From Candidatus Bathyarchaeota archaeon (GTDB lineage Archaea > Thermoproteota > Bathyarchaeia > Bathyarchaeales > DTEX01): a DNA stretch of 64,000 nt. Both the position numbers and the translations under genes were made by a program. Numbering within the stretch: the stretch's first letter is position 1; each line of letters opens with the position of its first letter. The stretch covers positions 1 to 64,000 of the forward strand of contig JAGTQE010000008.1 in NCBI GenBank assembly GCA_018396635.1. The letters run 5' to 3'. Under the pieces are notes generated by a model, which made no database searches, was not told where the DNA came from, and was given only the letters and a program-made list of their open reading frames with translations. Below, in pieces: positions 8,637 to 11,438 of this stretch.

Positions 8637-8714
8637 TGGTGGGCCCGACCGGACTCGAACCGGCGACCCGCGGGTTATGAGCCCGCCGCTCTAACCTAGC
8701 TGAGCTACGGGCCC
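8637..8714 (-). tRNA. tRNA-Met (CAT), elongator type, encoded CCA
   Basis: The minus strand folds into a standard cloverleaf with acceptor GGGCCCG/CGGGCCC, D stem GCTC/GAGC, anticodon arm GCGGG-CTCATAA-CCCGC and T arm with loop TTCGAGT. The discriminator is A (8640), and CCA is encoded at 8639-8637. The G1:C72 pair and GGGCCCG acceptor are typical of archaeal elongator tRNA-Met, not the A1:U72 initiator. The gene has no intron, unlike the two other tRNA genes in the window. Confidence 0.93.
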
Positions 8715-8811: not shown

Positions 8812-8820
8812 CTTTAAATA
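8812..8820 (+). promoter_or_regulatory. TATA box of the tRNA-Asn gene
   Basis: CTTTAAATA lies about 27 bases before 8843, which would be the transcription start. That places the start about 33 bases before the perfect acceptor strand at 8876 but right at an earlier near-copy of it (GGCGCCGCC, 8844-8852). Confidence 0.5.
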
Positions 8821-8875
8821 CCTCGGTGAATATTCAAAAATATGGCGCCGCCAGAAACGGGAAGATGCCGAACGG

Positions 8876-9015
8876 GCCGCCGTTCACGCGCCCAATGGTG
8901 CGTGGACGAGAGCTCAGTTCGGTAGAGCAGCGGGCTTTAAGGGGGTTGAAAGCCCCTTTAAAGGCTGAGGCTGTTAACCCGTTGGTCGACGGTTCGAGTC
9001 CGTCCGGCGGCGCCA
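8876..9015 (+). tRNA. tRNA-Asn (GTT) with two introns, encoded CCA
   Basis: The mature tRNA can be assembled from three exons: 8876-8883, 8911-8936 and 8973-9012, giving 74 bases plus encoded CCA (9013-9015). It has acceptor GCCGCCG/CGGCGGC, D stem GCTC/GAGC, anticodon arm GCGGG-CTGTTAA-CCCGT and T arm GACGG-TTCGAGT-CCGTC. Intron 1 (27 bases, 8884-8910) lies between T8 and A9 and forms the hairpin CACGCGCC/GGTGCGTG. Intron 2 (36 bases, about 8937-8972) lies just 5' of the anticodon; its exact cut is ambiguous because GGCT is repeated at both borders. Both positions are non-canonical for archaeal tRNA introns, whose usual site is 37/38. A possible third intron is discussed in the findings. Confidence 0.85.
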
Positions 9016-10808: not shown

Positions 10809-11438
10809 TTACTTGGGCTGCGCAACTCCCTCTTCTGGTGCCTTTAGTGCTGGTAGCTCTGGGAACCTCTCCTTCATTCTTGTCTCTGCGACTATGGCTG
10901 CTTCGTTGAGGATCTTTTGGGCTTCTTCGCTTGCAGCCTCGAAGTCCGGTGTCATCCCCACAGCTTGGCTTGCCTCAATCATTATCTCATCCAACAGCGT
11001 CGTTATCTCGCCTAGCTCACGCTCAGCAGCCGGGAATACTCCAGCTATGCCAGTGCGGACGCTCTGCAGGACTCGGCCGACTGGTGCCAGGACTGCAGCG
11101 ACGTTCCCAACCTCTGTCACGGTTTTAAGCCTTAAGGCAACCCTCTCAAGCGCTAGCTCCGCGTTCATCATGAAGTTAGCCATCTTCCTAATCTCAGCGA
11201 GCTCATTAGCATAAACGCTTGCCCTCTTCATGTCATGCTTAGAGTAGGCGTCAACAACCTTCTGGAAAAGCGCCTTATCCCTCTGCGTTAGGAGGCTTAT
11301 AGCACCATTCAGATACTGGATCTGAGCCTCAATACGCCTAGCAGCCAACTCAATCTTATGCCTAAGCGGAGGACCAGGCCTCAAAGTAGCGGCGATGCCA
11401 GTCCTATACTCAGACCACTCCCTATCAAACCTAGACAT
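10809..11438 (-). CDS. cdvB: CdvB-like ESCRT-III protein (Snf7 family)
   Basis: This 209-residue, largely helical protein has the layout of archaeal CdvB/ESCRT-III. A basic N terminus (residues 1-40) is followed by long amphipathic helices with ELAEIRKMANFMMNAELALERVALRLKT-type sequence and an acidic C-terminal half. The C terminus carries a Pro-rich ERFPELPALKAPEE stretch resembling the MIM2 motif that recruits the Vps4-like ATPase CdvC. ESCRT-III polymers drive membrane constriction at cell division or in vesicle budding. Neither CdvA nor CdvC is in this window. The ATG at 11438 follows GGAGGTGGAAGG, with an AT-rich TATA-like region near 11470. Confidence 0.82.
   Translation of the reverse strand: MSRFDREWSEYRTGIAATLRPGPPLRHKIELAARRIEAQIQYLNGAISLLTQRDKALFQKVVDAYSKHDMKRASVYANELAEIRKMANFMMNAELALERVALRLKTVTEVGNVAAVLAPVGRVLQSVRTGIAGVFPAAERELGEITTLLDEIMIEASQAVGMTPDFEAASEEAQKILNEAAIVAETRMKERFPELPALKAPEEGVAQPK

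Follow-up and report, generated by a model that had tools for sequence, protein, structure and literature searches.

How can an intron be spliced out of a tRNA when it lies so near the 5' end that its own splice motif uses the acceptor strand? This logic puzzle is posed by a tRNA-Asn(GTT) gene in the window, the 64,000-nucleotide stretch of DNA analysed here, which belongs to a 1.45-Mb genome of the class Bathyarchaeia in 35 contigs (G000). An ARAGORN run missed the gene, and Rfam RF00005 matched it at model positions 9-63 only. As the initial annotation had proposed, two introns of 27 and 36 bases must be removed for a proper tRNA-Asn, and their removal yields a normal 77-nt tRNA with an encoded CCA (Table 1). 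A split or permuted gene was rejected, the exons lying in normal order on one strand with one TATA-like box. A tRNA-Met gene (8637-8714, minus strand) is positioned head to head with the Asn gene, and a Met-like match occurs close to the Asn gene in several relatives too.

Table 1. Features of the tRNA-Asn(GTT) locus, in positions of the window; introns, pairing and transcription start are predictions.
Feature	Position	Strand	Remark
TATA-like box TTTAAATA	8813..8820	+	23 bases upstream of G8844, comparably spaced in relatives
Leader element TGGCGCCGCC	8843..8852	+	lies where transcription is predicted to start; complementary to the tRNA 3' end
Variable leader spacer	8853..8875	+	from the genus alignment
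tRNA-Asn(GTT) gene	8876-9015	+	two BHB introns; mature tRNA normal
Exon 1 (positions 1-8)	8876..8883	+	mature sequence, which begins at 8876
Intron 1, 27 nt, between 8/9	8884..8910	+	same position in 23 relatives' genes
Exon 2 (positions 9-30)	8911..8933	+	mature sequence
Intron 2, 36 nt, between 30/31	8934..8969	+	BHB central helix 8928-8931/8964-8967
Exon 3 (position 31 to encoded CCA)	8970..9015	+	mature sequence
Leader element target GGCGGCGCCA: acceptor 3' strand, G73, CCA	9006..9015	+	leader-paired in the predicted fold

Judged by their sequence, intron 2 is a BHB intron and intron 1 a candidate one, both at noncanonical positions and both predicted to be spliced. Intron 2 has a central helix CAGC/GCUG with all four pairs, an inner helix of 13 bp and an outer helix of 2 bp; 30/31 was the only register tested that gave a four-pair central helix, and placements at 31/32, 32/33 or 33/34 were discarded with at most one central pair each. 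The central helix of intron 1 (8878-8881/8905-8908) has three of four pairs, the fourth being a C.A mismatch; its bulges are GU^U and AG^A, its inner helix measures 8 bp and its outer helix, which includes leader bases, 4 bp. In the predicted fold the last spacer bases (8868-8875) and the D-arm (8912-8922) may make up this outer helix. A perfect central helix for intron 1, CGCC/GGCG, is present in other lineages, such as G025 and G028. In the window gene (over 8878-8908) and in relatives of family f1, a slipped, unbroken hairpin CGUU/GACG is possible and is favoured over the BHB by folding; one relative (L044) carries CGUC/GACG instead of CGUU/GACG and keeps the slipped pairing. An additional intron in the T-stem 3' strand, adjoining the acceptor 3' strand, was noticed in the tRNA-Asn genes L106 (G024), L107 (G031) and L108 (G011).

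Upstream of the gene lies the GCCGCC (8847-8852) that had been described as a partial acceptor copy. The hexamer is present, but it is the inner part of a ten-base antisense strand: the leader element is the exact reverse complement of the last ten tRNA bases, CCA included, and the GGC at its upstream end is complementary to G73-C74-C75. The position of the TATA-like box points to a transcription start near 8843/8844, in agreement with the start predicted earlier close to this first GCCGCC copy. Among eight genes aligned from the genus, the element shows no change, and the spacer differs in both sequence and length. When the 39 tRNA genes of G000 with a findable 5' strand were scored for pairing between leader and 3' end, Asn reached 29 and Arg(TCT) 27, and the other 37 genes scored 14 or less. 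The upstream GCCGCC is a real, conserved leader strand and not a chance match.

To relate the element to the 8/9 intron, Asn genes were collected by their 3' end, with a match in 103 of 256 genomes of the class and in 29 of 61 in another scan; 40 further places were fetched as regions for their leaders. From 98 distinct genes, L059 (5' part missing) and L051 (leader of N) were left out, which gave 96; the sample excludes places in G232, G241, G243, G245-G248, G253 and G255 and second copies in G126, G141 and G227. An element was scored as present when leader and 3' end shared a run of 8-12 bp that scored 22 or more. It occurs in 23/23 genes with the 8/9 intron versus 1/73 without it (Fisher 3e-21, kinship uncorrected), the single intron-free gene that carries it being the second Asn copy of G004. 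Shuffled Asn leaders reached the observed score in 6/9200 cases. Eight more intron-bearing Asn genes fell outside the pattern owing to 3' introns or other differences (L191, L230, L257, L265, L266, L289, L293 and L108 of G011), and the element was recognised by eye in each of them. Among the matches listed (at least 119 loci), 20 Asn genes have the 8/9 intron, with the element seen by eye in 20/20. In all, two Asn genes without this intron keep the element, namely L082 and L107 of G031 (most of the element, by eye), and among the Asn genes examined we saw none with an 8/9 intron that lacked it. Intron and element also co-vary within families, both being absent in G008 (f1), in several genera of f6, and in G203 and G204 (f18).

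Only one other of the 39 genes of G000, tRNA-Arg(TCT), has an intron this near the 5' end, at 9/10 with the central helix CCCG/CGGG. Its leader element GGGCCGCTGGG can pair with CCCAGCGGGCCC with one bulge; it is the complement of the T-stem plus the acceptor 3' strand and not a copy of the acceptor 5' strand. Relatives have the Arg(TCT) element in 13/13 genes with the 9/10 intron and in 0/10 without it (maximum 14). Eleven of the 13 elements form a single uninterrupted run with a score of 20 or more, and those of G013 and G024, broken by a bulge or mismatch, were judged by eye. Within genus g5, G020 has both intron and element, and G014, G016, G017, G018 and G019 have neither. One Arg pair has changed on both sides, with GGGAU and AUCCC in G000 and GGGAA and UUCCC in G011. 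Shuffled Arg leaders attained the observed score in 92/5200 cases.

Strands that likewise match the 3' strand of their own tRNA accompany 5'-near introns of Gln, Glu and Lys genes. In G087, the leaders of Glu(TTC) and Gln(TTG), both with 10/11 introns, contain GCTCCGG and AGCCCGG, respectively, and Lys, with a 9/10 intron, has a leader with GGGCCCG. The Gln 10/11-intron pattern gave eight hits over 398 genomes of the phylum; one (L432) was rejected as no tRNA, and the remaining seven are real Gln genes, all with the element, four of them outside the class (G275 twice, G296 and G422). A 9/10-intron pattern behind GGGCCCG gave 14 hits in 300 genomes. Nine have the element, seven being Arg genes of family f1 and two Lys genes (G091, and G297 outside the class); three Met(CAT)-like genes, all from a single genus (G422, G472 and G485), lack a 3'-strand element, and two hits in G371 were set aside as having no 5' intron. 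Two Lys elements, like that of Arg(TCT), are complementary to the 3' portion of the tRNA they precede and do not copy its 5' strand, so the property shared by the elements is complementarity rather than duplication. Swaps of leaders against tails among 11 genes gave a mean own score of 26.3 and 16.2 with other isotypes, and 6/90 isotype swaps reached the score of the own leader. Two further genes of G087 were left uncounted, tRNA-Arg(CCG) (L406), which has a second GGGCGGG in its leader and unfixed splice sites, and Thr (L408), which is cut by a contig end.

A strict rule that the leader pairs with the 3' strand is broken by Thr of G086 and Met of G422, G472 and G485, which have a 5' intron and a leader without a 3'-strand match. 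These leaders use another arm: each matches, over a run of 10-11 bp (scores 26-27), the D-arm/anticodon-arm strand that follows the intron. For comparison, the highest-scoring leader run with any part of the tRNA reached 21 at most in the 73 Asn genes without the intron, except for the G004 copy (33). This second form was noticed only after the 3'-strand form had failed in Thr and Met, and it therefore counts as a lead.

An intron at 8/9, 9/10 or 10/11 draws tRNA bases 3-6, 4-7 or 5-8, respectively, into its central helix, so that the BHB and the acceptor stem are mutually exclusive. We folded 24 non-Asn genes at 37 and 65 C with and without the element, removing the entire leader in the Met genes. 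Without it, the acceptor-stem state lay within 0.5 kcal/mol of the whole ensemble in 24/24 genes and the BHB 2.2-11.8 kcal/mol above the ensemble; with it, the BHB cost dropped in 24/24, to 0-4.9 kcal/mol. Seven Asn genes with a perfect central helix behaved in a like manner, their predicted BHB cost falling from 5.0-9.8 to 0-4.0 kcal/mol with the element (37 C). For the window gene and its family, the leader altered the acceptor stem only: the predicted BHB cost was independent of the leader, the slipped hairpin CGUU/GACG was predicted to beat the BHB with or without it, and the acceptor stem of the window gene cost 19.4 kcal/mol with versus 6.0 without the leader at 37 C, and 13.1 versus 2.5 at 65 C. 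A protonated A.C pair or the enzyme may decide between hairpin and BHB. By these predicted energies, the leader would disfavour the acceptor stem and, in genes with a perfect BHB, shift the balance towards the BHB.

The sequences themselves show the candidate introns and the complementarity, along with the conservation of the latter and its link to 5'-near introns. We consider it likely that the anti-acceptor strand of the leader is a placeholder that lets a 5'-near intron be spliced. The primary Asn transcript would start with the leader carrying this strand. The splicing endonuclease would recognise the 8/9 intron only if positions 3-6 pair with the 3' end of the intron, and the element would hold the acceptor 3' strand and CCA, so that the BHB is not displaced. 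The element would probably also keep RNase P off until the intron is removed. After splicing, the true 5' strand would have to replace the leader strand, and RNase P would then cut before 8876. RNase P RNA is present in G000 (RF00373 at G000:C12:765-1060, 222 bits), G087, G275 and G422, and none was found in G028. In E. coli, pairing between a 5' leader and the 3' RCCA slows RNase P (PMC9433436), which would fit splicing first.

By folding, the release step would be less simple than a return to the cloverleaf by stability. Even after splicing, the predicted stability of the leader helix exceeded that of the acceptor stem in 23/23 Asn genes, by 1.6-17.2 kcal/mol, and so lends no support to an acceptor stem that simply wins. 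On these energies, release must be aided by tertiary folding, modification, a helicase or RNase P, or else the model is incomplete. A leader that rebuilds an intact acceptor/T minihelix was also dismissed as a general account, since the Arg element extends over the T-stem 3' strand as well.

Of the other explanations, the one that fares best, although we regard it as unlikely, is that the leader mainly blocks RNase P and 3'-end enzymes until splicing and does not aid the BHB. It would account for the coverage of G73 and CCA by the Asn element and for a folding effect that, in the window's family, is confined to the acceptor stem, and it has a parallel in the slowed E. coli RNase P (PMC9433436). 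It agrees less well with an Arg element that lies over the T-stem and inner acceptor but not over CCA, with Thr and Met leaders that leave the 3' end free, and with the lack of an element in genes with introns elsewhere. Considerably less probable is a functionless relic, an extra strand left over from a copying or rearrangement of the 5' end when the intron was gained. The element stays constant while the spacer drifts, one Arg pair has changed on both sides, the Arg and Lys elements are antisense and no copies, and most intronless genes have no element, all of which speaks against a relic, even though many elements resemble copies of the acceptor 5' strand and two intronless genes still carry one.

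The initial annotation had also raised a third intron within the acceptor stem, 8853-8881, which would place the mature 5' end at 8847. GCCGCC does stand at both sites, and the predicted start lies just upstream of the first copy. BHB prediction around 8852/8882, however, gave a full central helix of four pairs with an inner helix in 0/8 registers; two registers reached three central pairs, both without an inner helix. Comparison with related genomes retained TGGCGCCGCC as a conserved leader element and lent nothing to a third intron, the second GCCGCC copy being conserved as well. Moreover, the Arg and two Lys elements are antisense rather than acceptor copies, and the copies are 1 base apart in Gln of G422 and 0 bases apart in Lys of G087, leaving no space for a BHB intron. 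We thus hold a third intron to be very improbable. Least credible of all is a chance repeat within a plain 33-nt leader: the leader stands, and short matches come easily with GC-rich acceptors, but chance is opposed by the 39-gene control from the same genome, the shuffled Asn and Arg leaders and the conservation of the element in the genus.

With the placeholder strand as the preferred reading, we lean towards a general cis-acting class in Thermoproteota, in which an intron whose 5' splice site lies within about 10 bases of the tRNA 5' end needs such a strand in the leader. The strand would pair with the acceptor 3' strand or the D/anticodon arm and switch the RNA between the splicing fold and the cloverleaf. 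The literature (PMC4090602, PMC4033280 and PMC3218864) describes noncanonical introns, split and permuted tRNAs and the complementary leaders of split halves. Noncanonical archaeal BHB introns, in Thermoproteales and others, likewise occur two in one tRNA (PMC4033280, PMC4090602), and the portions of these reviews consulted connect no leader element with 5'-near introns. Nor was such an element found in the portions consulted of PMC3218864, PMC3293823, PMC7714728 and PMC12397907, in a search that mostly lay outside subscription papers.

The split tRNAs of Nanoarchaeum equitans, Caldivirga and Aeropyrum also use a GC-rich complementary leader to present a BHB, and in them the intron-like helix is itself built from a leader and a trailer that belong to two transcripts (PMC3218864, PMC4090602). 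The Asn gene, in contrast, makes one transcript, and its leader would engage the mature 3' strand, at a site outside the BHB. In the E. coli case, too, a 5' leader pairs with the 3' end of its own pre-tRNA, through two bases adjoining the cleavage site (PMC9433436), whereas the archaeal pairing reaches up to 12 bp, involves the far end of the leader and is tied to an intron. If the reading as a class is true, the leader, besides the endonuclease, would decide which intron sites are possible, and some of the substrate information for archaeal tRNA splicing would sit beyond the tRNA, in leader sequences overlooked by annotation. The element could then help gene finders to recover missing tRNAs, and the locus would offer a simple in vitro system of an RNA that has to be unfolded for splicing and refolded for use. 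A rule of gain and loss is also suggested, by which the element may outlast the intron, the Asn intron without the element not having been seen.

Two other tRNA loci of G000 drew attention. On the minus strand of contig C23, at about 32600-32440 (L142, L453), a tRNA-Arg(GCG) looks circularly permuted, its 3' half (CCA end 32548) preceding its 5' half (from 32516) by some 31 bases; pairing of the outer flanks, CTCCAG/TTGGAG and CGCA/TGCG, may give a BHB near 37/38. Permuted archaeal tRNAs of Thermofilum pendens are joined at 59/60 (PMC3218864). A 3' half of tRNA-Thr(CGT) lies near a contig end (G000:C1:197612-197635, minus strand) with no 5' half before it, and the only 5' half of this type found belongs to the intact Thr on C33. 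Within the window itself, positions 10809-11438 (minus strand) encode a 209-aa protein that resembles the ESCRT-III/CdvB type.
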